NCBI GenBank assembly: GCA_021234155.1
Contig: JAJEKV010000019.1
Location: forward strand, 2,463,999-2,527,998
Reading direction: 5' to 3'
From: Isoetes taiwanensis
Taxonomy: Eukaryota; Streptophyta; Lycopodiopsida; Isoetales; Isoetaceae
DNA length: 64,000 nt
Shown here: piece after piece, positions 16,301 through 62,681 of the stretch
Position numbering within the stretch: position 1 is the first letter of the stretch
How the letters are laid out: the number at the start of each line of letters is the position of its first letter
Notes under the pieces: generated by a model
What the model was told of the DNA's origin: nothing
Seen by the model: the letters and a program-made list of their open reading frames with translations, nothing else
Databases searched by the model: none
Made by a program: the position numbers and the translations under genes

Positions 16301-16887
16301 TGCAATTTTTTGTCCTTGGGAAGAAGTATCCATGCACGAAGAGTGCATTAAGTTGCAGGCTCTGGTTGATGCCATTTTAAATAGAACACAGGCCTCTCTT
16401 GTAATCATGTCCCTGCAATCCTTTCCTAACAAGCAAGCCATGGCAAGCCATATCAAACATGTTGGACATGTCTAATCAGGGTAGCCTTAAGATGAGTGCC
16501 TGGTCAGGTTTCTCAATTGCCCATAAACGGCTAGCTTATATGGCACAATCACAGCCAGATGTACATGCTTTTCATATTCAAGATTTAGTCTCAGAGTACC
16601 TGCAATCATCTCTAAAGTTACTTTTGGCCACCGTCAAAATCTGGATTTGCATCAGCCTGGTCTACTCTATTGTGGATGGAATGAAGTGGAGTTATCGCAA
16701 TCTATTTTACATGGATGTCAAGTACCCCCATTTTCGTGTTATACAAATGAAGCAGGTGCAATTAGTCATCTATCTGTGACACAATGCATAGAATCTCAGA
16801 GCTTTATTTGACAGAATTTAGAGGATATAGCTGTGTGGCAGAATCTATGTTTTTTTCAGCAAATTCTCTGCACTGGAGAGACAAATA
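13305..16887. other. No gene recognised
   Basis: Only short, overlapping ORFs without recognisable motifs. A poly(A) run sits at 15,310-15,325. An imperfect palindrome, tgacgtagctgcgtca, lies at about 15,069. Codon-like but uninterpretable stretches occur upstream of the PPR remnant (16,070-16,780) and may be its decayed 5' part. Confidence 0.4.
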
Positions 16888-17683
16888 ATGGTAGTGCCAG
16901 GTTGGCTGCATTATGCCAAAGTTGGGAGCACGGAATCCATGAAACTATTTTGTCAAATGCAGCAGCATGGTTTCAAACCGAACAAGGTAACATATTTAGC
17001 TGTCGTAGATGCATGTTGTAATGCTGTTTCTCTAGCTTTTGGCAAAGTCATTCATGTTCACATCCTCAACCATAAATTCGACTGATATCTTTGTTGGAAC
17101 TTCTCTCATTGACATGTATTTTGAATGTGAAAGTATTGTAAGTGCCTATGAATTGTTTGATATGATGCCTGCACGGAACATAGTTTCATGGACTACGATG
17201 ATTTTAGGGCATGCTCGACATGGCCTATACAATGAGGCTATTATATGCTTCAGGCATATGTAACAAGATGGTTTAAAGCCAAAGAAAGTTACCTATCTCA
17301 CTGTTCTGACTGCCTTTGCAAATGTAGGAGCCCTAGCATGGGCAAAGCATGTCCATTTTCAGCTACTAAAAACTGAACTGGAGTCAGATATCTTTATGGG
17401 AAATAACTTGATTGTCATGTATGGCCATTGTGGCAGCATGGAATGTGCTCAACAAGTTTTTGATCACATGTTCACAAGAGATTCTATTTCCTGGAATGCC
17501 ATTATCTCAACATATGCTGACCATGGTCATCGAGAAGCTTTGAAGCTTTTGTCTGAAATGCAGCTGCAGGGCTCAACGCCAGACCAGATTACACATATTG
17601 CAATTTTAAATGCTTGTAGTCACATGGGTTTAGTAGATGAAGGCTCGTTTGTGTCCTTGCTACAGTCTAAGAATGGGGAATAG
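16888..17683 (+). pseudogene. PLS-type PPR protein pseudogene
   Basis: Pentatricopeptide-repeat proteins bind organellar RNA and, in plants, commonly guide C-to-U editing. Typical fragments are readable: KPNKVTYLAVVDAC, GTSLIDMYFECES followed by the ARNIVSWTTMI segment, then GNNLIVMYGHCGSM and RDSISWNAIISTYADHG, ending near NACSHMGLVDEG. The spacing is that of alternating L, S and P repeats. The frame shifts once at about 17,085, an in-frame TAA (17,261-17,263) interrupts the second part, and the reading frame stops at 17,683 with no E or DYW domain. At least four repeats remain. A decayed gene or gene fragment. Confidence 0.85.
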
Positions 17684-18730
17684 AGTTCCGGTTGAGAGCA
17701 GTTCTCCATTCTTTTAACATGGAAGAGTTAATCTCTTTTCAAAGCTCAGGGGTTTTGCAGTTGGATCGGTTGGGGCAAGAACAGAGAAAATGGAACGGGA
17801 CTTTCATCTCAAGTCTGCTACTGCACTAGTTACAGCTTGGGGTATTGCATTCTATCCTGCTAACAGGTTGGCATAGTGAGAAGAATACCTGAGTTTTATT
17901 TAGCCGGCAGCCTAGGTACTATTTTTGTTGTGCTTGCCCAATAGCTGTGAAAGCTTGGAATATGTAGCATACTGGTTCTTGAGCGGTTCTTGAGCAGTTT
18001 TTATGTATGAAATCTTCCGGAGGCAGCTTAAAGGTGTGTAAAGAAGACTTTTCAAGATTGGTATGCCGTAGCCTGAAACGTTCCTGTGCTGCTGTAGTAG
18101 ATTGTGGGTATGTGGGACTGCTTCCTTTGCTCAGGTTTGGCAATGACTAGTTGAACTGTGTAGCAGTTATTGTTTGGAAACAAGACTAAGTCTTGTATGT
18201 TGCCCTCTTCCATCCCAGCTGGAAGGAGGTGTGATTTTAAGAGGAGATTATCCTGATAGCAGTCTAGTTCAGGAAGTGATTTAGAAGGCATTGGTACAGG
18301 AGGACCACATGTTCTTATAGCTGATTGCTAGTTGAAGGACTTTAGTTCTATAGGGGCTTGAGGCCATCTCTAGCTAGTGAGCAATTGGAGATGGAACCCA
18401 GGCAAGTGATCAGGAGAGTCTCCTAGTAGTACTGAGATGGAGGCAGCTTTTGTGTCGAGTTAACGCTAGGGATGAAGCTTCCATCACTCTACCCTGGTTT
18501 GCTTGCATTTTTGTGGCGGAGCTTGAAGGGGCATCATCTTTAGGGCAGCATCAAATCACTTCTTGGGGCAGATTGTCGTAAGGGTTACCTTCCCTTATCT
18601 TCACACTTGGGTTAATCTTTGTGCTCCAACGATTAGGCTATTTGGCTACTATGGAGCCTGAATAAATGTACTTTTTACATACTATTAATAAAACTAAAAA
18701 TATCTTGCCTTCAAAAAAAAAAAAAAAAAT
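17684..18730 (+). other. Gene-free stretch ending in poly(A)
   Basis: No ORF of note. The stretch closes with an ataaaacta/aataaatg-rich segment and then an A-run of about 18 (18,713-18,729), which looks like the 3' end of a reverse-transcribed sequence, possibly a LINE tail or a retroposed transcript. The poly(A) directly abuts the left terminal repeat of the next element, so an A-rich site may have served as its insertion site. Confidence 0.4.
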
Positions 18731-21214
18731 CTTTAATCTTGTCAAAGACAAAATCTAATCTTAAAAATCTTGTTCAGGACAAATAAGATCCAATTAGCAG
18801 TCCTAGTAATACATCAGGTGATCATGTATTATTAGGCCCTGATATGGTCAGTCATAATTAGTTAGCATAATGAAACAGTGACTATTGTTATCAAAAAGTA
18901 TGTTCATGCCTTGCATTAAAAAATCTGAACAAGAACAATTATAGACCAAGTATGATAAGTCTATATATGTCTATTTAAGAGCACTGAGTCATAAAAGCAA
19001 CATAATGCTAAGCAGTATCAAATTATAACTTTAAGACAATTATAACTTTAAGACAATTACTGATCCATGTATAGAGCCTAGACTCATTAAATAAAATCAG
19101 AGTTAGAGAGCCAAGCATATTTTAAATCAGATCATGCGAGAAACGTATGTATAAGTGACAAACCTTTTGATCCAAATAGGAGCCCCCTTGATTAAAATAA
19201 TAACAGGGATATGGGTGGCCAGAGAGAGTATAACAACAATGTAAACTGTTATTGTTAATAATGACAGTCAAGAATAGCTATAAGACATTCTCACTTGGTA
19301 AAAGTATTTATAGACTAAGTGAATCTTACAAATATGCAAAATCCGTAATCATAGAGACAATTTATGCAGAATATCTTACTGCCAGTAAACAACAGAATGA
19401 CAGTAAAAAGGATATTGAATGTATCTCTTGTTTGAACTTAGAACAATTTTACAGTCAAGATACTTACATGAGTTTTTGAATTTAAGCCAATAAGACAAGA
19501 TAAATATACATTTCATGAAGAAAGCATATGAACTCCAAACAATGAGCAAGAAGTTTGGTTACCTGCATGCCAACCAATCAATAATTAGCCTAAGAAGGGT
19601 AAAATCAAAAGGACATGCAGGTAAGCTATAAACTTCTTGGGTTTACCACCCTTCACATCGAAGGAGTTCCCAAATTGGTACAGACATAATAAATGCAAGA
19701 CAAATAAGTTAGCAAGTTCTGTTTTGCATTTTTGTGAATCATCATGCAAGCTCCACCACAGTCGGCCAGTTCCCTATTGTGAAGCTGCACTGCATAATGA
19801 AAGTAGAAAACTGCAGATTTACATCCCCTTACATTCTCACAGGTTCATTGCTTAGGATGAAGACATAAGATCCCCAAATATGATCAGAGGCATGAAAATA
19901 GATCCACAGAAAAGATCCGAGGTAGATAACCAAGTATGTGTAGCCAAATAGCTTCTTATCCTTAGATCTTTAAGATGTAAGAAAGAGCAGCCAGCATAAG
20001 TAATCAGTTCAAATTTATTAACATCTTATACTACTAGATAAACATAAGTCATGCATAAACATGGTGCAGCATTCATTTAGGCCAGCATATTTAGTGTATA
20101 GCAAGACAGGCCAAGAGGTGGATCCATAGAAATGATCAGAGGTAGATAGCCAAGGAAATCTAGTCTATCATAAAATCTAAGCCTCAGATCTATTAAATTG
20201 TCTGTAGGAGAAGACAGCATAAGCAATCAGTTCATAGTTGTTAGTAGATTACACTACTAGATAAGCAAAATAATGGAGCAGCCATCATTTAGGCATGAAC
20301 ATTTTGTGTATTACAAGACAAATCATTATACAATCACTAGAAATATATGAGTAGCCCAACAAGTTAGATTCCAGCACTTATCCATTATGCTTGGGGCATA
20401 TAACAACATAATTATACCAGATCCTATCCTGCCTAGCAATAAATGAACTACTATTAGTGAGGATAAAACCTGATGAGCTTGATTTGAAGGTGTATTTTCA
20501 GCATCCTGCTCCATGATATCTTTGCCATTGTCAGTAACTTGACAATTTTCTCTGTCCTGCATGGGGATAAGATCAGCCTCATTGCCCTTCTCAAGAAGGC
20601 CCTCTTCATGAGTATTCTGCTCCCAATCAGATGTAGGTGCATTGCTGGCTTTTGTGGTGGATCCTTCTGCCAAATTGGTCATATTGGGAGGTTTATGGAA
20701 CTGGTAGAGCTTTCTCATCTTAGCAGACTTAGCTTTTTCTTCTTCCATTCTTTTCCTTGTGGCCATACCCAGATCGCCCTTCTTCCTTGTCATGCTGCCA
20801 AACACTCAGTGGGTGCTTAAGAAACATATAGAGCCGCATTTGGCACAGAAGCCCTATTTATCGGGAGAAATAATCTTCCTTTTTTCTAAGTTCTAGCACC
20901 TAATACCGGCTGTGTCAATTTACATTGGCGGCATAAACCGTGAAGCCTTTTCTTCCAGCCTGCTAACCGATTATCTACTGATGTGTCATGCATGCATTGA
21001 ATTTACCTGCATGGCTAAGCTGCTCGAAGATCGTCCAGGTTGGAGATACGGCCAGTGCAAACTTCCAGCCAATTATCCGGATTTCTGTTGTTGCCCTAAT
21101 ATTTTCGCAATATTCATTTTGTACGTGGAACCAAATAGACTCCAAATAATTAAACAATCTATTTATTATTTTAGCAATTGGAGGTTAATATGTAGCCTAA
21201 CTGTTTCAATGTAA
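18731..21214 (-). repeat. Left terminal direct repeat (3' copy)
   Basis: 2,484 bp. Starts ctttaatcttgtcaaag and ends ctgtttcaatgtaa on the plus strand, matching 25,970-28,448. It differs mainly by single substitutions and a small internal tandem duplication (taactttaagacaattat, near 19,022-19,060). The ends do not show TG...CA, so it is not a classical LTR. It carries a copy of the terminal-repeat ORF. Confidence 0.9.
20470..20805 (-). CDS. Terminal-repeat ORF, left copy
   Basis: An ATG starts a basic, Lys/Glu-rich segment (MATRKRMEEEKAKSAKMRKL) followed by an acidic, Asp/Asn/Gln-rich tail. The frame reaches a plausible donor (CATCAG|GTTTTATCC) at 20,470, or runs on to a stop at 20,326 if unspliced. 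The right-hand copy (28,040-27,687) keeps the frame with mostly conservative changes, suggesting the exon was under selection while the family was active. In this 3' repeat it has no downstream partner and is probably silent. Function unknown; a charged N-terminal region of the element protein is one option. Confidence 0.45.
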
Positions 21215-21225
21215 GAACAATCTCA

Positions 21226-21748
21226 AGTATTACATATCTGCATACTTCTCACCAATGATGAAGCTATGTATGCATATGTTTTATATGCCACGTTATGGGG
21301 ACATGTCAGCTCCATGTATTGAACTTATTACTCAAGGACGTTTTTGCATAGCTGGCTGCATAAGCCTATCAAGTCTTACCTTATCTATCAGCCCTTTGAT
21401 TATTAGTATGAACCGACAACTCTTTTTAAGTCCATATAATAAATGTTAAGTCCACATAGCACATATTTTAGCAAGAGGGGGTTTATAGAAGACCAAACTG
21501 GTTCAGTTAAACTATGAAGCCCAAGTATGCGACATCTGCCAGTAAGTAGCATAATTTACACCATGATGACGCTATGCATGTGTATTTCATGCAGAGCAAT
21601 GGGGCAATTTCCAGTTAACTATCAAACCTATTTCTCAGAGTGTTTCTTTCATAACCTGCTGCATGCATATGTGAAGCACTATCGTACTATTTGTCTTTAA
21701 AGTTATTAGTATGACATAACTGTACCTTATTATAAATAATAAAAAAAC
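21226..21748 (+). mobile_element. Short retroposon, copy 1
   Basis: About 520 bp starting agtattacatatctgca and ending in an A-rich tail (ataaataataaaaaaa). It is about 99 % identical to 47,041-47,571, which ends ataaataaataaaaaaaaaa. No protein is encoded. A discrete A-tailed sequence at two places with different flanks is best read as a non-autonomous, SINE-like or truncated LINE insertion on the plus strand. No internal pol III boxes were identified, and target duplications are not evident by eye. Confidence 0.6.
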
Positions 21749-21896
21749 CTACCTCCTTCCGTAGTTTGAGGGGCCTTTGTTCAGAAAGAATTTCTTGACA
21801 TTCAATCATTTTGGATACAGCAAGGGGAGTAGGGCCTTACTGTATCAAAGGCCCTACTCTCCCTATCTTTGCTATCACTCCATTGACAGATCCGTT

Positions 21897-23975
21897 TTAT
21901 AGTGAAGATTTAAGTACTTTAAGGATATCATTAATATTGTAAAGAATACCTGGGAACTGGCTGTCTTCTAGAGTTTGTATCACCAGTTTCTTAATGTCCG
22001 CCTTTGCAAATCCATTTTTGCAAAACTCTTGAGCAAGTTGAGCAATATCTGCAGCTGCATTGAATGGACATGAATTGGAGTAAACATAGGGTAGAATTTG
22101 AGATATTATAACCCTTGATGCCTGTCCATATGGTCTGCAACCATCGGCCATAATAAATTTTTGAGCTGTGAAGGGTAATTTGCAGCGTTTATCATACCTT
22201 GTGATGATGAAAATCCCCCTGGCTTGGTCAGTGACCTCAATGGAAGCATTTAAGAAATTACATTTATAACCAACCTGTTCACGTAAATCCATCGTCTCTT
22301 TGTATTCGGTCTCATCCTTAATTCCAAGGTGTTGCATATTATAGATTGAGATTTCAGCATCATCTGTGAGGAATTGTTTGACATAACCACCATTAAGAAT
22401 GTTGAGGTCATCAATGTATCTTGTGGCGTACTGAAATCTATAGATGTCATGAAACCTGTTTGCATGAGCTAATTTGAGAATAAATTTCAATTCGTACCAG
22501 GCAAGGTACATGTTACACCATGCTGGGCTAGAGGCAAAGCCCATTGGTATTCCTCTTTTTTGTCTCCATATTTTACTGCCCATTTGCAGATAGCAATTAT
22601 TTAGTAGCCACTGGTTCATTTGTTTGAAATGATCTTTTGTAATTTCAGACCAGCAAATGCTTTCCCTATCTTTTTTGAGGCTTTTCTCCCAACATACCAT
22701 ATATTTGATCCCATCGGATTTAATCAGCATATGGAATTTGTGCTGGCCATCCCTCATGTAATCCCATGTTAAGTCAGCAATATCGTTCATAATTTCAGAG
22801 ATGCCATCTTCCCCTTCTAAGGGGATGTTCTCGTAACATTTAGTTATGTCAGCCGAGAATACATCATGGATTTTGGCTGGGAGATTAAGCATTCTATCAT
22901 AGACAGAATTCACTATCCAGCATGCATTTATCCTATTTTTGTACCATAATTTATATTTGGCAGTATTTCTGTGGCAGATCAGAGGCCATATTTCCAAAAA
23001 ATTATTTAGAATGGTAGTGACAACCTCAGCAATTTCCGCGAATACAGTATGATGGGCATTTGTAAGCCATCTGTATTCATTTTTGTGCATTTTGAAAGTG
23101 GCCATTAAATATGGCAAGTTACTGCTTTGAAGTTCTTGTGTATTAAGCATACTACAAATTTCAGCTTTGCATTTTTCTTTTATTGTGTCCGGGCTTTCAT
23201 TGATGACCTTAAAATCATCACTATTGAGCCTGTCAAGTGCCTTATCAGCAATAAATTTCTGACATATGAACGCTGCATTGTTGTTTGCTTTATCCAATCC
23301 TGCAATGTAGAAGTTTTTCGTCAACCAGTCAATGTTCCTCAAAACATCTTTGCCATCCCATAGGAACCTTTTTCTTCTTATATTTCTTTTGAAATCTACA
23401 ATCTCAGCATGAGCATAGTCCATCAATAAATCCTTAATTTTCTGGATGTTATCCTCTGAGATGTCAAGCAGCTCAAACCTATGTACTGAGAAGAACTATA
23501 GACAGAGTGAATCAAATTCTTCCATAAATGTTTGTGTGCTCAACCCAGCATCAGGAATGTGATTGAGTCCTTTGGCCATAGCAAGCTTTAATTTTTGACA
23601 ATGAATTATATCTAGATTAGTCGTTTGAATGTGGCCAATCTTGGGATCAACAAACTTTGCAAGAGAAGGGTTGAGGCAGGGGCATTTATTGGCTGTCCCT
23701 TCTGCAAACACTTTGTATGGTCTGTATACTTTGTCCCTGATTTGATCAATGTACTTCCAAGCAAAAATAGTTGCATCAACTAGATCTGACCCTCTTTGGT
23801 CTAGGACTTCTGTCAGCACATTCTGAAATAAGCTTTTGATATTGAATTTATCCAATGCCTTAGATAAAAAGGTCATGTGAATGATCCATTCTTGCTTTTT
23901 TACTCTGTTATTCTGCAAATGTCTTTTTCCATTTAGGTCTTTAAAAATGGATCTTGGGTTCCCCTGCTTAACCAA
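21897..23975 (-). CDS. Penelope/telomerase-like reverse transcriptase (amber-interrupted)
   Basis: One frame runs from 23,975 to 21,897, broken only by a TAG at 23,496-23,498, giving about 690 residues if the stop is ignored. Numbering from the Met at 23,426: fingers motif FKMHKNEYRWL (111-121), motif A SADITKCYENIP with Asp193, motif B RGIPMGFASSP (291-301), motif C RYIDD with Asp339/Asp340, then a thumb-like region with RYDKR (410-414). All three catalytic Asp are present. The N-terminal ~180 residues (23,975-23,427) match nothing I recognise. A preceding intron probably lies between 24,240 and about 23,990. No C-terminal GIY-YIG domain follows. It would copy element RNA by target-primed synthesis. 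The RT call is secure; the Penelope-clade assignment is likely but not proven. Confidence 0.85.
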
Positions 23976-24240
23976 ATGAATACCCTTTGTTAACTATCAG
24001 AAGTATTATGAGAATACATGTAAATGAAATATTTCTCAAGCCATAAGAATTATAAATGACATCTATATGTATTATATGTATTATAACTGACAATCTGAGT
24101 CATGTTGCCATATGCATTCAGCCGGCCAAAATGGTTTCATATATAATGCCATATAGTTAAGTTTTTACTCAAGAAAAGGTGTCATAGTAGATGAAAACAT
24201 CATCATCAAAATCTGCCAGAGCACGAAATCCAGCATCTTT

Positions 24241-25904
24241 TTACTTGGGAATATTGACAAAGTTGAGTTCTAATCCAGAACTGTCATCCAGAGAAACAGT
24301 TTTATTACCACCTTTGGTAACAGAATATTCATCCATGTTGCTCGTAGATGTTCCCTTGGGGTCAATGCTTGGTGCAGCAGATGAAGCATTTTCAGAAAAT
24401 TCAATCTTTGGATCTTTTGTAATTCTTGGAGGGTACTTGGGAATGATCCTGTTGATATTTCTGTTGAAACCCAGAGTGCTGCCACTTTTATTGGAGCTTG
24501 ATTTCTGCAAAAATGTATTCTTGTTGTTCTTCCCCTGTTTTTCTAAGAATGAAACAGATTTGATGGTCTTTTCAGCTAGGTCAGCAACCTTACTGTTTCT
24601 AAACATAGCTTTCAGCTTTGCATTAGGAGTTTTCGCATATGCCATTGTCATATCAATGAGTACTTTTCTCACATCAAGATAGCCAGCATAGGCAATGATG
24701 GCAGGTCTTAGCACTTTGTTGAGTAATTTGGAAAAGATGACCATTTTCATCATTGGTGTCGTATCAGGGTAAATCACTTCCATATTGTTAAGGAGAAACC
24801 AAAATCCATGATCAATCCAGATAATACCACTTTTGCAAGAATTTTTGGCATTGTTCTTGGTGCATTTGCATGTAAAGTAAGGGCAAAAGGATCTCCAAAT
24901 CCTTTTCAGATAAAAATCATCACGTGTGATGGTAGTATAGGCCATATGCCCTTTCTGTTTGACACACAAACCTGAATTCTTAATGCAAGGCTGATCAAAG
25001 AAAGTTATGTCAAATGGTAATTCATCCAAGTCAATACTAGTGAACATCTTTTCAAAACTTAAGGCAGCTGCTTTTGCTTTTTTCAGTTCTGTGTCAGTAA
25101 TTCCAGCAATGCTTATCCATGTCTCAAGGCTCAACGGGGCTAAAGCACCAAAATTCATGCTTTTCCATATGGCATGGCCATAAGCAGCACTGTTGCACTC
25201 AACAATTTGTTCACTGGCCATAGGAAAACAGGCAGAATTTGCCAAATTAAGATTTGGGACTTTATCATCCGAAAAAAGAGAAATTCTCAGTATTTGAATC
25301 ATTATTTTTGGCCTTGTTGGCATCAAGACTTTGAAAGTCTTCATCATTCAAGTCTGTATCTGAAAACAGACAATCATGTATTTCTTCCTGTAAATAAACA
25401 GGGGTAGAGACAGCATTGTCTTCTTTTTCAAAAGTGGGAGGTTTAATCTCATTGGCGTCTTCAAGGGCTGTAATCCCTACGACAAATTTTCTGGCTGCTT
25501 CATCTTCATTACATGTCCTATTATAGAGCATGCTTGGAAATTCTTTGTACAATAAAGAAATTGCTTTCCTTACATTTGCTGAACTCAAAGTTGACTTTTT
25601 TCATGTTGTAGAACATTCTGGACCAGCAGCTATAACCCAGGTAACTAACAGGTGATCTGGATTTATCAATAATGTTTCTCTCCTTGAGTGTGATAAATGC
25701 GTGTATATCTTTGTTCTTGATACATGCTAGAAGTATTTGAACAGCGTAGCTTGGGCAGTCCACATCACATTCACTATACTTGAGGCTGGCTAGTTCTTTT
25801 ATCCATTGGATGTCGCTGTAATTCGCGTCATCATCTTGAAAGACAAAGACAGATTTCTCCTGAACACATAAGTTTATACATGGTAAGTAATCAAGTGAGT
25901 ACAC
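24241..25904 (-). pseudogene. Unrecognised upstream protein of the retroelement
   Basis: Three overlapping frames (25,904-25,521; 25,588-25,265; 25,347-24,241) join into one ~550-residue reading frame if two homopolymer shifts are allowed: an A-run near 25,600 and a T-run near 25,270 (both given on the coding strand). The joined protein has an acidic middle, a Cys cluster (FCPYFTCKCTKNN) followed by KNSCKSG that might bind metal, a WIDHGFWFLL hydrophobic segment, and a Lys/Ser/Asn-rich tail. After the TAA at its end the same frame stays open for about 23 more codons. It sits where an N-terminal endonuclease or nucleic-acid-binding part could be, but no GIY-YIG, zinc knuckle or esterase motif is convincing. 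Function unknown. Confidence 0.55.
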
Positions 25905-25969
25905 CTGTCATAAAACGACCACTATCAAGGACCCTAGTTAAACTAGAGTACTGAGTTAAGTAAAAAAAC

Positions 25970-28448
25970 CTTTAATCTTGTCAAAGACAAAATCTAATCT
26001 TAAAAATCCTGTTCAGGACAAATAAGATCCAATTAGCAGTCCTAGTAATACATCAGGTGATCATGTATTATTAGGCCCTGATATGGTCAGTCATAATTAG
26101 TTAGCATAATGAAACAGTGACTATTGTTATCAAAAAGTATGTTCATGCCTTGCATTAAAAAATCTGAACAAGAACAATTATAGACCAAGTATGATAAGTC
26201 TATATATGTCTATTTAAGAGCACTGAGTCATAAAAGCAACATAATGCTAAGCAGTATCAAATTATAACTTTAAGACAATTACTGATCCATGTATAGAGCC
26301 TAGACTCATTAAATAAAATCAGAGTTAGAGAGCCAAGCATATTTTAAATCAGATCATGCGAGAAACGTATGTATAAGTGACAAACCTTTTGATCCAAATA
26401 GGAGCCCCCTTGATTAAAATAATAACAGGGATATGGGTGGCCAGAGAGAGTATAACAACAATGTAAACTGTTATTGTTAATAATGACAGTCAAGCATAGC
26501 TATAAGACATTCTCACTTGGTAAAAGTATTTATAGACTAAGGGAATCTTACAAATATGCAAAATCCGTAATCATAGGGACAATTTATGCAGAATATCTTA
26601 CTGCCAGTAAACAACAGAATGACAGTAAAAAGGATATTGAATGTATCTCTTGTTTGAACTTAGAACAATTTTACAGTCAAGATACTTACATGAGTTTTTG
26701 AATTTAAGCCAATAAGACAAGATAAATATACATTTCATGAAGAAAGCATATGAACTCCAAACAATGAGCAAGAAGTTTGGTTACCTGCATGCCAACCAAT
26801 CAATAATTAGCCTAAGAAGGGTAAAATCAAAAGGACATGCAGGTAAGCTACAAACTTCTTGGGTTTACCACCCTTCACATCGAAGGAGTTCCCAAATTGG
26901 TACAGACATAACAAATGCAAGACAAATAAGTTAGCAAGTTCTGTTTTGCATTTTTGTGAATCACAAGCTCCACCTCAGTCGGCCAATTCCCTATTGTGAA
27001 GCTACATGGTACGCATACTGCATAATGAAAGTAGAAAACTGCAGATTTACATCCCCTTACATTCTCACAGGTTCATAGCTTAGGATGAAGAAATAAGATC
27101 CCCAAATATAATCAGAGGCATGAGAATAGATCCACAGAAAAGATCCGAGGTAGATAGCCAAGTATGTGTAGCCAAATAGCTTCTTACCCTTAGATCTTTA
27201 AGATGTAAGAAAGAGCAGACATCATAAGTAATCAGTTCAAATTTATTAACATCTTATACTACTAGATAGACATAAGCCAGGCATAAATATGGTGCAGCAT
27301 TCATTTAGGCCAGCATATTTAGTGTATAGCAAGACATGCCAAGAGGTGGATCCATAGAAATGATCAGAGGTAGATAGCCAAGGATATATAGTCTATCATA
27401 AAATCTAAACCTCAGATCTATTAAATTATCTGTAGGAGAAGACATCATAAGCAATCAGTTCAAAGTTGTCAGTAGTTTACACTACTAGATAAACTCAAGT
27501 CCAGCAAAATAATGGAGCAGCCATGATTTAGGCATGAACATTTTGTGTATTACAAGACAAATCATTATACAATCACTAGAAATATATGAGCAGCCCAACA
27601 AGTTAGATCCCAACACTTATCCCTTATGCTTGGGGCATATAACAACATAATTATACCAGATCCTATCCTGCCTAGCAATAAATGAACTACAGTGAGGATA
27701 AAACCTGATGAGCTTGATTTGAGGGTGTATTTTCAGCATCCTGCTCCATGATATCTTTGCCCTTGTCTGTAACTTGACAATTTCCTCTGTCTTGCATGGG
27801 GATAAGATCAGCCTCATTGCCTTTCTCAGGAAGGCCCTCTTCATGAGTATTCTGCTCCCAATCAGATGTAGGTGCATTGGTGGCTTTTGTGGTGGATCCT
27901 TCTGCCAAATTGGTCACATTGGCAGGTTTATGAAACTGGTAGAGCTTTCTCATCTTAGCAGACTTAGCTTTTTCTTCCTCCATTCTTTTCCTTGTGGCCA
28001 TACCGAGATCGCCCTTCTTCCTTATCATGCTGCCAAACACTCAGTGGGCGCTTAAGAAACATATAGAGCCGCATTTGGCACAGAAGCCCTATTTATCAGG
28101 AGAAATAATCTTTCTGTTTTCCAAGTTCTAGCACCTAATACCGGCTGTGTCAATTTACATTGGCAGCATAAACCGTGAAGCCTTTTATTCCAGCCTGCTA
28201 ACAGATTATCTACTTATGTGTCATGCATGCGTTGAATTTACCTGCATGGCTGAGCTGCTCGAAGATCGTCCAGGTTGGAGATACGGCCAGTGCAAACTTC
28301 CAGTCGTTATCCGGATTTCTGTTGTTGCCCTAATATTTTTGCAATATTCATTTTGCACGTGGAACCAAATAGACTCCAAATAGTTAAACAATCTATTTAT
28401 TATTTTAGCAATTGGAGGTTAATATGTAGCCTAACTGTTTCAATGTAA
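25970..28448 (-). repeat. Right terminal direct repeat (5' copy)
   Basis: 2,479 bp, direct copy of 18,731-21,214. On the coding strand this is the upstream repeat, so the element promoter and first exon should lie here. The outer edge is followed by aatgaaagttttag with no obvious short target duplication matching the left flank. Confidence 0.9.
27687..28040 (-). CDS. Terminal-repeat ORF, right copy (probable first exon)
   Basis: 117-codon frame homologous to the ORF at 20,805-20,470. The start context and basic GMATRKRMEEEKAK segment are identical, with a few substitutions downstream. The same donor-like CAG|GTTTTATCC is present at about 27,705. As the 5' copy it is correctly placed to be spliced to the internal frame starting near 25,904. 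Being duplicated in both terminal repeats is consistent with a Penelope-type pLTR that overlaps coding sequence. Confidence 0.45.
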   Translation of the reverse strand: MFGSMIRKKGDLGMATRKRMEEEKAKSAKMRKLYQFHKPANVTNLAEGSTTKATNAPTSDWEQNTHEEGLPEKGNEADLIPMQDRGNCQVTDKGKDIMEQDAENTPSNQAHQVLSSL

Positions 28449-28702
28449 AATGAAAGTTTTAGATGTATACACTGACCAACCCCCATTCAAAATGCAGTCA
28501 AATTCAGCTTTAGAAAGGAAGCAATGATGTATGAGAATGGGATGGGAGGGGTTGGCTTTCTCATCACTCCTATTGCTAACAACGACTGCTGCATCTGTTG
28601 TCGCCATATTCAAAATTCTGATCTGCAAAAGTGGTCGAAGAATAAGAAGGAAATAGTCATCAGCGCGCGAAAATAGGTGGTACTATTACAATAAATGTAA
28701 AT

Positions 28703-29306
28703 ATTGCCATCTCATCATGTAATTGCCACATCATTTTGTTTTACCAATTCATCTTGCAACTAACCTTGTTTTTGCCACATCACCTTGTACTTCTTGCCAC
28801 ATGATCTTCTTTTTGCCACCTCATCATGTAATTGCCACGTCATTTTGTTTTACCAATTCATCTTGCAACTTCATCATGTAAAGTTTGCCACATCACCTTA
28901 TTTTACCAATTCATCTTGCATTTAACCTCAAAAGTTTGCTTGTGAAATCTGTTAAGGGTTTATCCACCTCAGCTTTTACTTCTTGCCACATCATCTTGTA
29001 CTTCTTGCCACATGACCTAGTTTTTGCCACCTCATCATGTATTTGCCACAACATCTTATTGTTGTGATTTCATGTTGCCACTTCATCATGTAATTGCCAT
29101 ATCACCTTGTTTTACCAATTCATCTTGCAACTAACCTCAAAAGTTTGTTTGTGAAATCTGTTAAGGGTTTATCCACCTCAGCTTGTACTTCTTGCCATCT
29201 CAACATGTATTTACTACATTAAGTTTTTGCCATCTCAACATGTATTTACTACATTATCTTGTTGTTGCCATTTCATGTTGCCACTTGATCATGTAATTGC
29301 CACTTA
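28703..29306. repeat. Degenerate TTGCCAC(A)TCAT minisatellite
   Basis: About 600 bp of imperfect repeats built from ttgccacatcatcttgt and ttaccaattcatcttgcaac, organised in longer units of roughly 75-130 bp. For example, aagtttgcttgtgaaatctgttaagggtttatccacctcagc is repeated near 28,930 and 29,140 with few changes. No protein is encoded in a consistent frame. Confidence 0.75.
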
Positions 29307-30616
29307 AAATCTAAGGGAATCTCCATTAAATCTTAAGAATCTAGGGGAATCTTTGTAGAATCTTACAGAATCTAAGTGGAAATCTAAAGGTATCTTGGTG
29401 CAATATTGGAAATGTAGGGGAGTCTTTATAAGAACTTAGAGAATCTAGAGGAATCTCAAGAGAATCTCAGGGATTCTAGGGGAATCTTTTTAGAATCTTG
29501 AAAAATCTAAGAGAATCTAAAGGGTTCACAAGAGAATCATTAAGAACATAAAAGAATCTAAGGGAATCTTGAAAAAATCGTTAAGAACAGAGGCAGTCTA
29601 GGGAAATCTCAAGAGAATCTATAAGAATCTCAAGCGTTTCTTTGGAAATCTAGGGGAATCTTCTTAAAATCTTTGAGAATTCGAGTAATCTTGATGGAGT
29701 CTTGGAGAATGTAGAAGAATCTAGGAGAATCTTCATAGAATCTTGGAGAATCTAGAGGAGACTTGGGGTATTCTTTTGGAATCTAGGAATCTCAAAAGAA
29801 TCTTTGAAAATCTAGGAGAATCTATAAAACCTTTGAGAATCTATGCGAATCTAGAAGGAATCTTAGGGAATCTAGGGGAATCTTAATAAAATCTAGGAGA
29901 ATCCTTGGGAATCTAAGATAATCTAATGAATCTCAAGAGAATCTTTTGGAATCTAGAAGAAACTTGATGGAATGTTAGAGAATCTAAGAGAATCTTCATA
30001 GAATCTTGGGGAATCTAGGAAAATCTCTTGAGGAACCTAGAGGAATCATGGGATAATCTCTGAGAATCTAAAGGAATCTTAGAAAATCTCAAGAGAATCT
30101 TTGGAAATCTAGGAGAATCTAAGGGAATCATCATAAAATCTCTAAGAATCTATGGGAATTTGGATGGAATCTTGGAGAATCTAAGGGAATCTTAATAAAA
30201 TCTAGGGGAATCTCCATAGAATCTTAAGAATCTAGGGAATCTTTGTAGAATTTTAAGGTATTTAAGGGGAAATCCAAGGGTATCTACGGGAATCTTGGTG
30301 CAATTCTTGGAGAATCTAGGGAAATCTTCATAGGATATTAGAGAATCTAGAGGAATCTCAATCTTAGCGATTCTAGGGGAATCTTTATAGAATCTTGAGA
30401 AATCTAGAGGAATCTTGGGATCATCTTTGAAAATCTAGGGGAATCTCAGGAGAATATTAGAAAATCTTCATAAAATCTACGAGAATCTAGGAGAATCTAC
30501 ATAGAATATTGCAAAACCTAAAGGAACCTTGGGATAATCTTCAAAAATTTAGGGGAATCTTTGTAGAATCTTAATAGTCTAGGGGAATCTTTCACGCTGG
30601 GTGTGTTTTGGAGGGT
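29306..30616. repeat. AATCT-rich minisatellite array
   Basis: About 1.3 kb of degenerate 14-18-bp repeats around the theme (g)aatctaggggaatctt, with variants such as gaatcttggagaatct. The period is irregular, so it is a diverged array, not a clean satellite. The last ~300 bp form the left arm of a fold-back (30,316-30,972). A related array occurs at 60,000-60,590. Confidence 0.85.
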
Positions 30617-30972
30617 TAGCTTCATGCAGTCCTTCATATTAATATATCGACCCTCGAAAACACATCCAGCGTGAAAGGTTTCCCTAGATTCTTAACATTC
30701 TACAAAGATTCCCCTATATTTCTGAAGCTTATCCCAAGGTTTCTTTAGATTCTGCAATATTCTATACAGATTCTCTTAGATTCCCATAGATTCTATAAAG
30801 ATTTCCTAAGATTCTCTTGAGATTCCCTTAGATTTTCAAAGATTATCCCAATATTCCTCTAGATTCCATGTAGATTCTCTTAGATTTTTCAAGTTCTATA
30901 AAGATTCCCCTAGAATCCCTAAGATTCTCTTCAGATTCATCTAGATTCTCTCCTATGAAGATTTCCAAATAG
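30316..30972. repeat. Long inverted repeat (fold-back) with 33-nt loop
   Basis: The left arm 30,316-30,616 is complementary to the right arm 30,650-30,972 along the whole length, roughly 85 % by eye. The core is tight: tttcacgctgggtgtgtttt on the left and aaaacacatccagcgtgaaa on the right. The spacer is 30,617-30,649. The arms consist of AATCT-type repeats in opposite orientation, so the array switches strand exactly at the centre. If transcribed, the RNA would form a long hairpin. Confidence 0.85.
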
Positions 30973-34615: not shown

Positions 34616-35807
34616 CTACATGAGTACTTCTTGCAAAGAGGCGTGAAAATATGGAGAGGTAGGATTTTCAAGGAAACAAGGCTCAAATGCATTAAAAGAT
34701 GCATGACAAGTAATGATCAATCGACGGGAGTCAAGGGCAAACAATCGATAGGCTTTATGTGTCAAAGAATAGCCAATGAACATGCAGGGAATGGCCTTGG
34801 ACTGCAATTTGGATTCTTCTTCTTTAGGAATGTGCGCAAAGCTTTGCATCCAAAAACTTTGAGGTGATCAAAAGAAACAGAGCTGCCATTTCAGATTCCT
34901 GCTGGGATCTTGTGGCTAAGGCTTGAGTGAGGCATGCGATTGAGCAAATATGCTGCAGTACAAATGGCTTCTTCCCAAAATATATCAGGAACATAAATGG
35001 CTAGCAGAAGACTTCGTGCCTTTTCCATCAAGGTGCTATTTGCACGGTCGGCTCTTCCATTTTATTCCAGAGAGTATGGAGATGAAACTTCATGACAAAT
35101 GCCATGACTGGAGAAGAAATGCTGGAATCTGTGGAAATTGAACTCACCATCTCGCCTGTGTAACGTTCTTCCTGAGTAATGAACTGAACAACATAATCAA
35201 AAGTTTGACTTTTTGTAGTGAGGAGTAAAATGGAAAGATATCTGCTGTAATCATCCAAAGGCACCAAAATATATTTGGAATCATTGAAGGAAGAAGGCTT
35301 TATGGGGCCACATAAATCTGCATGCACAAGTTGGAGCAAATGAGTGGCTTGACTGGTAGATAGTGAAAAGGAGGCTCTGGAACTTTTACTGATGAGACAA
35401 ATATCGCAAGGGTTGGCATTATCGGCATTATTGGATAAAAAACCTTGCGTGATGCGCTGTTGAATCCGGGTTGAGCCAATGTGATCCACTCGGTAGTGCC
35501 ACAAAGAATCACTTATGGGACCATTAGAGGCAAAATGAGTAAATTCAGGTGCTTGGATATTGATCTGATATAGATTTCCATGCTTATGACCAGAGAGAAG
35601 CAAGGAATTATCAAAACTTCTTATGTGACAAGCACCATGAGTAAAGTTCACATGAAAACCATCATCAGTCAACTTACTGACTGAAAGTAGGCTTTTGTGT
35701 AAACCAGGGACGTGGAGCACATCTTTAATGTGTTTCTTGCTTCTAGAAGAAAGGTGAATAGTCACAACCCCTTTGTCAATGGCCAATTGTTGTGCATGAT
35801 CACCCAT
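34616..35807 (-). pseudogene. Copia integrase remnant
   Basis: The first frame (35,807-35,028) has the end of the protease-type region, the HHCC zinc-binding part (LWHYRVDHIGS ... PCDICLISKSSR) and the catalytic-core start LVHADLCGPIKPSS with LDDYSRY. The next frame (34,849-34,616) carries the integrase C-terminal part with SKLQSKAIPCMFIGYS and KAYRLFALD. In between, AICTAAYLLNRMPHSS is readable at about 34,960-34,910. Integrase joins element cDNA to host DNA; this copy cannot. Confidence 0.9.
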
Positions 35808-35895
35808 CTTGATGATACGGCTGTTGTGAGAGGTTCATATTGGAGAAACAAGGATCGATGAGGTGTCATATGCATGGTTGCTTCGAGTCTAGAAA

Positions 35896-37127
35896 CTATG
35901 AGGGGCAATGAGAAGAAAAAAGAATCAAGTGCTGCAAAAAAATACTTAAAGGCTCTTCAGTAGCAAGAGTGTCATCAACAAAGCAATTGTGATTCTTTTC
36001 TTCTGTTTCAGCAACATTACCATGTTCTTCAATGGATGTCTTTGGAGAAGCAACAATGGATGTCCTTGGAGAAGCAAGGGGTGCAGGTGCTGGACATTCT
36101 TTGGCATAATGCCCAAGCTTCTTACAGCGGTGGCATTTGATAGTGCTTTTGTCTATGCAATTCCTACGAGAATTTGACTTCCTTGGCTCCCTTTTGGGAT
36201 CTGCAAGCATGGCAGACTCAACGTGCTTGGTGATTTCAGCAATCATCAAAGCATCTTTAGACGGTGTCTTTGACTGCTGTTGATGAAATGCTTCTTGCAG
36301 AATTCGGCCAAGGGCAGCCTCAAAAGTATAGTCTTCAATGTGTCCTTGCAGGTTGATTATCAGGCCATCAAAAGTGTTAGGCAGACTATTGAGGAGGAGG
36401 GCAAACCTTCTCATCTTCTGATGCGTCACTTCCAATGGCATTCAAATTATCCACTAGCTCTTTTAGGCGACATATATGATCAGTCACATCTCCATCTTCA
36501 GTCAAGTTTGAGTTATAAATCTTCACTCAACTTTAAGTTATAAACTTGATTTCTGAGGACACGCTGAGATGCATCGGTTGCTACAGCTCCCCAAATTGAC
36601 TAGATCAACCAGGAGGATTCGCTTGGGCGAAATATCCCTGCAGCATGCCTATAAACTGCAAGCAGACCTATGAACTGACAGAGGGATTCGCTTAAGGGAA
36701 TCCCCCAAGCCAAGGAGGATTCGCCTGTGTGAATCCAGAGGATTCGCTTGAGTGAATCCTCCTTGGCTGCTCTAGTCAATTTAGGGAGCCAATAAAGTGG
36801 GCGTTCCTTAAAGCATAATGATGCTCAAGAAGACGTATAATATCCCTGCTTGTATTGGATCCCTTGACCAGCCTTGCAGGATTATCATCCAATCCTTGGC
36901 AGATCCACGGTTTTATTTTTCTATCATTTTCAACATCAAAGGATAGATCCACCAATCCACCAGAGAAGCTACTGTCTGCATTGTTGGATGCTTGAGGATC
37001 CACAACTTCCCATAAGCTATGAACCTCCAAGAGCATGCGCATTCTCCACTTCCACATCTGGAAGTTCTTGCCATTGAATCTAGGAATGGTAAATGGGATT
37101 TGCAGTGTTCAAACCAAGGGCTTCCAT
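35896..37127 (-). pseudogene. Copia gag remnant with internal insertion
   Basis: The N-terminal part starts at ATG 37,127, then shifts frame to FNGKNFQMWKWRMRMLL and runs to 36,776. The C-terminal part (36,441-35,896) ends with a CCHC zinc knuckle, CHRCKKLGHYAKEC, which packages element RNA. Between them about 330 bp include hairpin-forming GGATTC repeats (36,590-36,775) that are not gag. Confidence 0.85.
36590..36775. repeat. GGATTC hairpin repeats inserted in gag
   Basis: Several copies of aggattcgctt(g/a)agg/tgaat. The last part is an inverted repeat: agccaaggaggattc at 36,708-36,722 and gaatcctccttggct at 36,754-36,768, 15 of 15 bases complementary with a 31-base spacer, itself partly palindromic. 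Confidence 0.75.
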
Positions 37128-37846: not shown

Positions 37847-39500
<1,654 letters not shown>

Positions 39501-44585: not shown

Positions 44586-45604
44586 CTGGCATTTCCTTGC
44601 TATATCCATGTAATGTAATGAATATGCTCCAATTAAAGGATACCAGATCCCAGTCAGACATTTCATTAAAAACTTCAAGTGCATCAACCAAATTTCTACG
44701 CTTCCCATACATATCGATGAGAGCAGTTGCCACAACGACATCCGACTCTAATCGACTTTTAAATTTGTTATGTATCTTTTTGCCTTCAGTTAAGGCTGAG
44801 TAATTGGCACATGCATCGAGGATGCTCACAAAGGTCACCTTATCTGTTTCATGCCTGCCAATTCCATTTGATGAAGAAAATAAGTGGCTTCGCTAAACTG
44901 CCCTTGTTGTGCATAACCTGCAATAAGAGCATTCCAAGAGGCAAAATCTCTGACAGGCATTTTTCTGAAAAGTTCTAAAGCTTTGTCCAACCATGCCGTG
45001 CATGTGCTGAAATCATTGCTCCAGGAAACAATATCTCTACATGGCATTTGCTCAAGCAGTGCAGGCGCAGTGTTTAGTTGTCCCTCCCTTGCATAACCAC
45101 AAATCATTGCAGTCCATGAAATGACATTAGATCGTGCATTTGTGTAAACATTTCCAAAGCATTGTCCATCTGCCTTTGCCGGACATACGCAGAATTCATG
45201 GCATTCCATGACACTGCATGGCGTTGCAGCATAGCCTCGAATGTCGTTACCACCTCCTTCTATTGTCCTCTCTGAGCATATGCTGAAAGCATGGTTGTCC
45301 ATGCAAAGGTATCGTGATGTGGCATTTGTTGAAACAACTGCAATGCTTTGTCCATTTGGCCATGATGAGCACAAGAAAAAATTATAAGGTTCCAAGTAAA
45401 AGAATTTTTGTTATTCGTCTTATCAAACACTGCATGTGCTTCCTGCAAGGCTCCACATTTTCTATACATCTGAACTAAGAGGTTACACAAAAATCTATCT
45501 CCGTCTAACTCCATTAATCTCCATCTCTCCATTGATAGCTTTATACAGATATTTGAAATGCATATTGGGCCTGCTTTTATTGCAAAATTGCTGATTGCAT
45601 GCAT
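44586..45604 (-). pseudogene. PLS-type PPR protein pseudogene joined to E2 exons
   Basis: Repeats readable in order: FLCNLLVQMYRKCGALQEAH, NSFTWNLIIFSCAHHG, HHDTFAWTTMLSAYAQRG (frame 1); ISWTAMICGYAREGQ, RDIVSWS, RDFASWNALIAGYAQQGQ (frame 2); [32 protein letters not shown] and [11 protein letters not shown] (frame 3). At least three frameshifts separate them. Similarity to PPR proteins stops at about 44,590 in GYSKE, precisely where the E2 exon's acceptor begins, and the E2 frame differs from the last PPR frame. PPR proteins act in organellar RNA processing. Here it is a pseudogene. Confidence 0.88.
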
Positions 45605-61448: not shown

Positions 61449-62681
61449 TCATTTTACTTCCAATAGAAGTTGTCTATGATTATCAACTTCCACTAAGAAA
61501 TCCCCCAATCTGTTAGGTTCAATTTGCATAAGCGAAAAAAAGTTTGTTTTATCAATATGGTGTTTCTCCCGAATTCCTTGATAGCAGCTACAGATAAGAA
61601 AAACATGAGATTCATCCTCAACCTCACCTGAGTTGCATAGTGTGCACAATCGATCTTCCCTGGGAATATTATGCCAACGTCCAGTTTCAATCTTCAAGTT
61701 GTGAGAGCTAGTTCTGTATTTTGCTATAACTCTTCTTGCCCTTTTGGAAATATGGGATCTAATGTAATCCTGATCAGAGTAGACTAACATGGGATTAACT
61801 TCGTTCTTGTAAAATGTAAACCTTGTCCCTTGTTTCTGCCACATCTGATCCACAACTTTTGTTTGGACTAATTTGCGAATGCCAACATCTGTATCTGGCC
61901 AATCTTGTTCTCTAATTTTCCATCTCTGATACCATTCCATCAGATCTCTATACCATCCCTTAAGCTTAGATTCTTCAGCCACAATACATGGTATTCTTGT
62001 ACTATCAAGACTTCTCAACCTGTTTACATAATTCAGCGCTAGACATAGTCCTTCGGCTTCTAATGGCAACATACCAAACTCAGCCAACATGATCTGATAT
62101 GGCACTTGATGTCTCATGCCTAATTCCTCTTGCAGAAAGATTTTCATGACGCTTTCCACTTTTGCCCACAAGCGAGCAGATATGGATGGTCCCCAAATTT
62201 GTACACCATAGAGCAACACTGTTTGCACCAAACACTTAAATAGCATTCTGCGCATGGACCAGCTGCTTAAATCCACCTTATTGCAGTCAGATAACATTCC
62301 ATACAAGGCCCTCTTACCTGCTGCCACCCTTTGTTTAATGCACTCTTTCCAACTGTAATTTGAGCTGAACACAAGTCCTAAGTATTTGTAACTTTCTACT
62401 GTTTCAAGTTGCAAACCCTTATACTGGAACACAGGCCTTTGAGTTGTACCAAAAACCATGACTTTAGATTTAGATAAATTTACAGCCATACCTCGTTCCT
62501 CACAAAATTCGGCCAAACTATCCATATGTCTGCTAATATGACCACGTCATCTGCATATAATAGTAATTGAAGAACAACGAGACCTACTTTAGTACTTGCA
62601 TGCCCTCGATCCCGTAACCATTGCTCCAATTCATCAATGAACAAGCCGAACAAAGTCGGAGAAGAGCGAACACCCTTGCTT
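61449..62681 (-). pseudogene. LINE ORF2 C-terminal half (RT palm to zinc domain)
   Basis: From motif B (QGC-like, then SPTLFGLFIDELEQWLRD) through YADDVVILAD (about 62,560) to a 358-codon frame (62,525-61,449) with NLSKSKVMVFG, YKYLGLVFSS and VLLYGVQIWG, and a C-terminal C-x2-C-x8-H-x4-C unit (CTLC...SHVFLIC). A small deletion and frameshift follow YADD near 62,525. Typical of non-LTR retrotransposon RT; the clade was not assigned. The upstream part ends at an A-run (62,694-62,683 on the minus strand), where another LINE's tail joins. Confidence 0.88.

Follow-up and report, generated by a model that had tools for sequence, protein, structure and literature searches.

A probable Penelope-like retroelement family without a recognizable endonuclease in Isoetes taiwanensis, and its junctions with poly(A) tracts

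The window analyzed here, a stretch of 64,000 nucleotides of the Isoetes taiwanensis genome, contains, on the minus strand and between two 2.49-kb direct repeats, a unit whose reverse transcriptase (RT) is Penelope/TERT-like. In the explanation that we favor, and that we hold to be somewhat better than an even bet when the transposition cycle proposed below is included, this unit belongs to a large family of Penelope-like elements (PLEs) with no recognizable endonuclease, of which it is a decayed copy truncated at its 5' end. From 5' to 3', family members consist of a pseudo-LTR (pLTR) with a first exon, ORF1, an RT exon, a covarying RNA pseudoknot and a second pLTR. The features of the window copy and its 3' neighborhood are as follows.

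25962..28448, minus: 5' pLTR, 5'-truncated, without about 533 bp that the 3' copy has (alignment of the repeats)
27705..28028, minus: first coding exon within the 5' pLTR, MIRKKGDLGMATRKR...NQAHQ, then a putative donor CAG/GT predicted from the sequence
25930..25961, minus: short stem-loop directly after the 5' pLTR, CTAGTTTAACTAG in the window copy and ATTGGTTTTACCAAT-like in other copies (seen by eye)
24241..25859, minus: ORF1 exon, frameshifted in the window copy, about 530 aa in intact relatives, with a Cys-rich CPYFxCxC motif and of no known family
21897..23963, minus: RT exon, containing RT motifs and PLE-like motifs at the N-terminus, with a single in-frame stop in the window copy and no GIY-YIG
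21748..21865, minus: conserved RNA, an H-type pseudoknot and then a purine-rich tract adjoining the 3' pLTR
18723..21747, minus: 3' pLTR, full length, start T7ATTATT, end AAAGA-T7 (alignment and copy comparison)
20470..20793, minus: the pLTR exon again, in its second copy within the 3' pLTR
18713..18722, plus: A-tract between the 3' end of the element and the terminus of a host repeat family
18312..18712, plus: end of that dispersed repeat family with its A-tract

Architecture and coding capacity of the element

The direct repeats (18723-21214 and 25962-28448) fall into a single alignment of 2,514 columns with 95.5% identity and 7 gap openings, which is far beyond chance and confirms the long repeats around an RT unit given in the preliminary description; its outer bound at 28448 was exact, whereas its start at 18731 falls 8 bp within the repeat, which begins at 18723. 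The first 533 bp of the 3' pLTR are unpartnered because the 5' copy is truncated. Of 19 copies examined, 17 have direct repeats on both sides of the RT, so the repeats are not an unrelated segmental duplication that occurs without the RT. The two pLTRs of the same element were mutual best matches in 11/11 cases, closer to each other than to the pLTRs of other elements, and the pair is reset to near identity at each move. Besides pLTRs, the family shows the PLE traits of head-to-tail tandems (partial or full) and 5' truncation. In one copy, C1064, about 650 bp past the 3' end recur upstream of the element.

The RT motifs DITKCYENIP, GIPMGFASSP and YIDD, all three noted earlier, lie in the minus frame 21897-23495, and the RT exon also carries KGLNHIP and DKANNN, which we take to be PLE-like N-terminal motifs. 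Pfam returned only RVT_1 for the window RT, below threshold (E 2.3e-5), and NCBIfam gave a weak sub-cutoff match to a group II intron RT. With HHalign, the best match was the host TERT exon with motif B, a weak one (E 0.0015, probability 16%), followed by a host LINE (E 0.35) and the other host TERT exon (E 0.77, i.e. no resemblance to the latter). The motifs point to a probable Penelope/TERT type, as first proposed. A PDB sequence search gave nothing meaningful, and single-sequence AlphaFold models (mean pLDDT 35 and 33) were left unused, that of ORF1 being too poor for judging its fold.

Both RT and ORF1 are under purifying selection (dN/dS 0.08-0.18 in near pairs). An acceptor-like AG stands immediately 5' of the codon start in 5/5 ORF1 exons and 7/7 RT exons compared, and a donor-like CAG/GT follows the pLTR exon as a putative splice site; introns are probable at these sites, and intron retention had been listed as a PLE trait. 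A fusion of ORF1 to RT through splicing at the ORF1 stop was rejected, as the GT at the stop is not conserved.

The pseudoknot covaries across family copies. The sole Rfam match in the window was a miRNA family (E 0.38; other strand 0.72) that corresponds to the P1 hairpin of the pseudoknot, and it was rejected. A hammerhead ribozyme in the pLTR is a feature of many PLEs; neither this nor any other known ribozyme turned up when the window element and the end pieces of 10 copies were scanned against Rfam.

As to an endonuclease, Pfam found no GIY-YIG match in the window element, in agreement with the preliminary description. Nor would a neighbor appear to supply one: when all 121 GIY-YIG matches in the genome were compared with the 84 RTs, none was less than 100 kb from an RT and the nearest lay 105 kb away. 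Two GIY-YIG loci were inspected, where no RT-like frame of at least 90 aa was seen; one of them adjoins a PIF1-like helicase. Integrase, protease and RNase H had no Pfam match in the element, an APE-type endonuclease and a LINE RT were not found in it, and its sense 3' end carries a T-tract, not poly(A).

Copies and their junctions in the genome

We scored 84 RT matches, out of 4,211 rough candidates, in the 1.66-Gb genome, and the family is abundant in I. taiwanensis. One 53.1-Mb contig carries six copies, at 7.6-51.5 Mb, and tandem head-to-tail arrays of family members occur. No runs of TTTAGGG or TTTTAGGG (two or more) or of TTAGGG (three or more) were present in 79 sequences, and scans of prokaryotic and viral contigs gave no confirmed relative. 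Because copies were sampled through their RT, those truncated at the 3' end may be too few in this set.

The ends of the family copies are mostly precise. Among 14 resolvable copies, 13 have a 3' end in which AAAGG-T7 passes into a longer T-tract; the exception (C908) ends in T7 alone. In 5 of 12 tested 3' flanks, this end adjoins a repeat in the opposite orientation, at the poly(A) end of that repeat (a LINE in four, another repeat in one), while LINE frames appeared in 0/10 of the 5' flanks, which are shorter than the 3' flanks. Two further LINE labels given by eye were set aside because Pfam found nothing: the flank of C306, a doubtful sixth case excluded from the count, and window positions 61449-62546. 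The repeat family at 18312..18712 has 40 scored loci including itself, and 36 of the 40 matches start no more than 5 bases from the junction. Some repeat families were used as target more than once; among 19 outer ends, chosen by their order in the list, six have an end-anchored flank in common with another insertion, and C1072 and C1103 each lie in the T-tract at another family member's 3' end. The string A14-CCTTTAA occurs 139 times versus 11 for its reversed control. A narrow pattern of one LINE tail plus the element end recovered only C107, a copy already known.

Truncation at the sense 5' end without a long T-tract was found in 2 of 12 resolvable copies (the window copy and C1055, the latter T-rich), and no resolvable copy had a truncated 3' end, a polarity that fits a sense template. 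In C1078, the 3' pLTR match breaks off within the repeat, which may reflect 3' truncation or later damage. No flank duplication between 5' and 3' sides was found in 9/9 copies, nor any duplication enclosing the downstream LINE in 3/3 copies searched a further 7 kb.

A proposed cycle and its alternatives

The favored explanation reads these junctions as products of a sense RNA that would pair through its U-tail with DNA ends in poly(A), which LINEs may have left, and be copied there. The upstream pLTR would drive transcription, and the pLTR exon may be spliced either to ORF1 or to the RT exon, giving two proteins with a common N-terminus. The RT would bind unspliced sense RNA ending in ...AAAGG-U7, in which the pseudoknot would probably serve to bind protein or to halt the RT. 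The U-tail would then pair with a poly(A) 3' end that is exposed, in many cases that of a LINE tail, and this end would prime cDNA, which would stop at the pseudoknot/pLTR border or earlier and be joined to the target by T-rich or microhomology pairing. Finally, both pLTRs would be re-made from one template stretch, through template jumping or a tandem or circular RNA, and for this reason be reset to near identity. Against this explanation stand the absence of flank duplications in the copies searched, the ends of C908 and C1078, the sequence repeated upstream of C1064, the narrow-pattern search that yielded only C107, and the weakness of the HHalign match to TERT; ORF1 might also be a nuclease that escaped recognition. 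A more specific version, which we offer tentatively and regard as possible but doubtful, is that the element parasitizes LINE integration, with LINE DNA supplying the poly(A) 3' end, perhaps one still unfinished during insertion, from which its U-ended pseudoknot RNA is copied, so that an endonuclease would not be needed.

The same A/T tracts at both element ends might instead reflect a polyadenylated antisense RNA (5'-A7CC...AATAATAAAAAA-poly(A)), inserted by LINE-type priming on T-tracts with LINE proteins in trans or, at nicks that LINEs have made, with the RT of the element itself. The sense-5' border is slightly variable, a few bases giving way to T in C941, C1067 and C1051, as expected of alternative poly(A) sites, and retained introns would be explained, as argued for PLEs in portions of PMC3846280. 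However, truncation falls at the sense 5' end, where the truncated window copy and C1055 lack a long T-tract, truncated 3' ends are absent from the resolvable copies, with C1078 as a possible exception, and purifying selection on the RT indicates that the RT is used; we consider this reading unlikely. Still less probable, to our judgment, is that ORF1 is an unrecognized A/T-tract-specific nuclease and that LINE tails are targeted only as common long A-tracts. ORF1 is conserved, Cys-rich and selectively constrained, and no other cutter was found, but it resembles nothing in Pfam or PDB, a result that a nuclease could also give. An LTR-type element with a divergent RT, whose pLTRs are true LTRs and whose purine-rich tract primes second-strand DNA, would suit the precise pLTR borders, the position of that tract beside the 3' pLTR and the reset pairs, yet it is highly improbable given the absence of Pfam matches to integrase, protease and RNase H, the lack of TG..CA ends and of a detected target-site duplication, the head-to-tail arrays and the TERT/PLE-like RT motifs.

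Relation to known elements and significance

Endonuclease-deficient PLEs, or EN(-) PLEs, include the Coprina and Athena clades. The parts of the literature covered list EN(-) PLEs for Selaginella, Pinus and Picea (PMC9033089; PMC12477314), and those of Selaginella, pine, spruce and rotifers share with the Isoetes element a TERT-like RT without GIY-YIG, which is thus present in land plants (PMC9033089; PMC12477314; PMC3846280). The suggestion of an uncommon or undescribed plant lineage was therefore partly right: such elements had already been listed, and the family is not scarce in its host, while the poly(A) niche, the pseudoknot and ORF1 look new against the same partial sources. In these sources, the Selaginella and rotifer elements are described as telomere-associated, whereas the Isoetes element is chromosome-internal, at poly(A) tails, with no telomeric repeats in the sequences examined.

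Penelope/Poseidon (PAc of Anolis), the Adineta Pen families and conifer Dryad, as far as portions of PMC11167929 and PMC9033089 describe them, likewise have pLTRs, tandem or partial-tandem copies, AT-rich targets and 5' truncation, but they carry GIY-YIG, and PAc also a hammerhead ribozyme, neither of which was found here; unlike them, the Isoetes element has a separate ORF1 and a pseudoknot. For the lizard PLE, reported features include internal initiation and AT-rich targets (PMC11167929, in part), and a rotifer PLE copy lies inside a non-LTR element with microhomology at its 5' junction (PMC3846280, in part). LINEs and their poly(A)-tailed passengers also insert in association with A/T tracts and LINE tails; in contrast, the Isoetes element has its own TERT/PLE-type RT, a proposed sense RNA ending in U rather than A, and an orientation antisense to the LINE. 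The RNA of telomerase is pseudoknotted and TERT primes on a DNA 3' end; the Isoetes element likewise has a pseudoknot, a weakly similar RT and, as proposed, DNA 3'-end priming, but it is a dispersed repeat family versus a single gene.

The PLE literature covered gives no settled answer to how PLEs that lack an endonuclease move at sites other than telomeres. An element in the poly(A) tails of other mobile elements may show how one without a cutter still spreads, and the question of movement becomes testable in a large family whose ends are mostly precise, whose poly(A) target recurs, and in which two proteins and an RNA are conserved. If true, copying from LINE ends would mean that a telomerase-style reaction has been diverted from the ends of chromosomes to the tails of retrotransposons, and it would tie the spread, in plants, of a telomerase-like RT to the activity of LINEs.

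The window copy, its coding frames and its family

The preliminary description proposed long terminal direct repeats around a minus-strand unit with distinctive reverse transcriptase (RT) motifs, and both were recovered in the window, together with the following features:

18723-28448, minus strand: the element (the window copy)
18723-21214 and 25962-28448: terminal direct repeats (pseudo-LTRs, pLTRs), 95.5% identical across 2,514 alignment columns
21897-23495, minus strand: RT frame with the quoted motifs
28700-29300: degenerate tandem repeats (TGCCACATCATCTTGTA-like) adjoining the element's 5' side
29400-30950: further degenerate tandem repeats (AATCTAGGGGAATCTT-like)
30401-30616/30650-30865: inverted repeat of 216 nt (88%) within the tandem-repeat zone
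16831-17683, 35028-36441, 38365-39486 and 44835-45410: other frames
61449-62546: other frame, retroelement-like by eye, without Pfam match

The other frames include an Epimerase protein (Pfam E 4.6e-17); judged only by eye, there are also copia-like gag/integrase pieces and PPR-like frames. The only Pfam match of the window RT is RVT_1, below the cut-off, and its motifs resemble those of Penelope-like elements (PLEs). The window copy is decayed, with a frameshift in ORF1 (the ~530-aa protein upstream of the RT) and one in-frame stop in the RT exon, and intact family copies are present elsewhere in the genome. Searching the 1.658-Gb source genome gave 84 scored RT places out of 4,211 rough candidates; apart from the window copy itself, six RTs are 83-93% identical to the window RT, two 72%, and 75 fall at 54-60%, most of the latter with open frames of ~690 aa and some with stops. 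In near pairs (three for each protein; the remaining pairs are at or near synonymous saturation), dN/dS was 0.085-0.164 for RT and 0.081-0.177 for ORF1, and therefore purifying selection has acted on both.

The anatomy was compared in 19 copies (the window copy and two fetched sets of eight and ten). Direct repeats lie on both sides of the RT in 17 of them, which ties the repeats to the RT; the exceptions are C1103 and the copy at 20.75 Mb of C941, whose RT frame is open, whose pseudoknot is mostly deleted and whose nearby repeats are inverted rather than direct. The usual order is pLTR, stem-loop, ORF1, RT, structured RNA and pLTR. C1051 is a head-to-tail array with a 6.40-kb period and a truncated first unit, and in the copy at C908:6970479-6973414, 1.44 kb of pLTR sequence is tandemly duplicated. 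A single motif search found the pLTR coding exon MTRKKGDLNMATRKR...NQ|V in 11/19 copies. An acceptor-like AG stands immediately 5' of a codon start in all ORF1 exons (5/5) and RT exons (7/7) compared, although in one RT exon (locus L019) the frame breaks soon after it. Because ORF1 has its own stop, the simplest reading of these sequences is that exon 1 may splice alternatively onto ORF1 or RT.

As the preliminary description had claimed, no GIY-YIG match was found in the window frames, nor in eight RTs. The source genome holds GIY-YIG genes (121 matches); with all 121 compared, the closest is 105 kb from any of the 84 RTs. ORF1 has no relative in Pfam or PDB and is a possible unrecognised nuclease. 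One GIY-YIG frame (C1042:1556500-1564000; Pfam E 1.3e-11) has a PIF1-like helicase frame (E 3.2e-16) about 2 kb away, and its length (129 or 144 aa) is shared by several further GIY-YIG matches; this type of locus is possibly another mobile or viral element. Two TERT RNA-binding-domain matches were also seen, on C1062 (4065477-4065686) and C1056; the former is rich in low-complexity Asn/Ser/Thr, unlike the C1056 gene, and its contig is perhaps foreign or contaminant.

This is a real family of PLE-like elements without recognisable endonuclease, a kind already known, so that "uncommon or undescribed" held only in part. PMC9033089 lists endonuclease-lacking PLEs from Selaginella, pine and spruce, and PMC12477314 describes those of Selaginella as telomere-associated. 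The poly(A) niche, the conserved RNA and ORF1 are described nowhere in the literature searched; for PLEs in poly(A) tails and a PLE pseudoknot, this covered titles and abstract openings of part of the matching papers.

A conserved pseudoknot and the element ends

A segment of ~100-132 nt separates the RT stop from the 3' pLTR. Our alignment used 18 of 22 sequences (21 from a motif search, L038 added by hand), leaving out L024 for its deletion and L005, L006 and L010 as close to others. Pairing is complete in helix P1 (100% of cells). In P2, where the P1 loop pairs with bases further downstream, it reaches 94.4%; a third, local hairpin is weak (77.8%). Seven pairs show two-sided changes, against a shuffled mean of 2.4 (0/500 shuffles reach seven). 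With the partner shifted by 1-3 columns, pairing was no higher than 57%, against 93.3% in register, a test biased toward the structure, which was derived from the same sequences. RNAalifold, which is unable to draw pseudoknots, backs P1. The purine-rich tract closing the segment beside the pLTR has 107 occurrences when up to 2 mismatches are allowed, and its reversed control has none.

Among 14 resolvable 3' ends, the AAAGG-T7-like end runs on into a longer T-run in 13 (4-28 additional T in 12 copies, ~6 in C1064); in C908, T7 is followed by G. In C1078, which is not among the 14, the pLTR match ends within the repeat, possibly through 3' truncation or later damage. Of 12 resolvable 5' ends, 10 start at or within ~10 bases of a T6ATT box adjoining the pseudoknot, eight with a clear extra T-run (≥7); the other two, those of the window copy and C1055, are truncated and have no long T-tract. 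Across the genome there are 139 occurrences of A14CCTTTAA, compared with 11 of its reversed control.

Template and copying

Within an element, the pLTR pair shows 89-99.6% identity, and in 11/11 elements compared its members were each other's best match, whereas pLTRs of different elements reach at most 89%, often over short pieces only; the thinnest margin was C628 against the window (89.2 vs 88.9%). Both pLTRs therefore usually stem from a single recent template, a pattern expected of tandem or jumping templates.

We propose that a sense RNA would be copied from its 3' U-tract, primed on a poly(A) DNA end. In the main rival explanation, an antisense poly(A) transcript is inserted LINE-fashion, which accounts for the slight differences between copies in their 5' borders; however, truncation occurs at the sense-5' end and none was shown at the 3' end, which argues for copying of sense RNA. 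In a lizard PLE, reverse transcription begins inside its RNA and AT-rich targets are preferred (PMC11167929).

Poly(A) tails as insertion niche

The 3' flank of C107 has 40 scored matching loci (itself included), mostly aligned from the first flank base. One, fully read, is a LINE: it has frames for RT (RVT_1, E 4.2e-32) and zf-RVT together with a 3' UTR and poly(A). Seven others inspected at the junction all end in an A-tract. C1067 has the same flank, while C1051 and C985 have flanking frames related to this LINE and oriented toward the element (C1051 also zf-RVT). The window 3' flank likewise has 40 scored matching loci, 36 of which start no more than 5 bases from the junction. Another repeat thus adjoins the 3' end in 5/12 flanks tested; C306, with a frame retroelement-like by eye and unrecognised by Pfam, was left out. 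No LINE frame was found in ten 5' flanks, on the whole shorter than the 3' ones.

As a less selected check, 19 A14CCTTTAA places were taken in list order, skipping C107; at least one (L067) resembles a chance match, and L078, chosen for adjoining a C107-flank match, is outside the count. Six have an end-anchored flank that recurs at a further insertion (L060/L061, L065/L070, L066/L074, window). Since the bases past the junction differ, these look like separate insertions. C1072 lies within the T-tract that terminates a different family member on its 3' side (39 bases, 95% to the C941 pLTR end), as does C1103 by eye, as if a single T-tract took repeated insertions. In C1064 (3424550-3434750), ~650 bp past the 3' T-tract recurs (98%) upstream of the 5' pLTR; this may be a long duplication, the trace of an earlier nested insertion, or a repeat in which the element lies by chance.

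Nine copies searched for a flank duplication had none, nor did three searched for one enclosing the LINE, so either the LINE or the element may have been inserted first. One rotifer PLE copy lies inside a non-LTR element (PMC3846280). In this Isoetes family, the T-tract at the element end frequently belongs to a different retroelement, as its tail.
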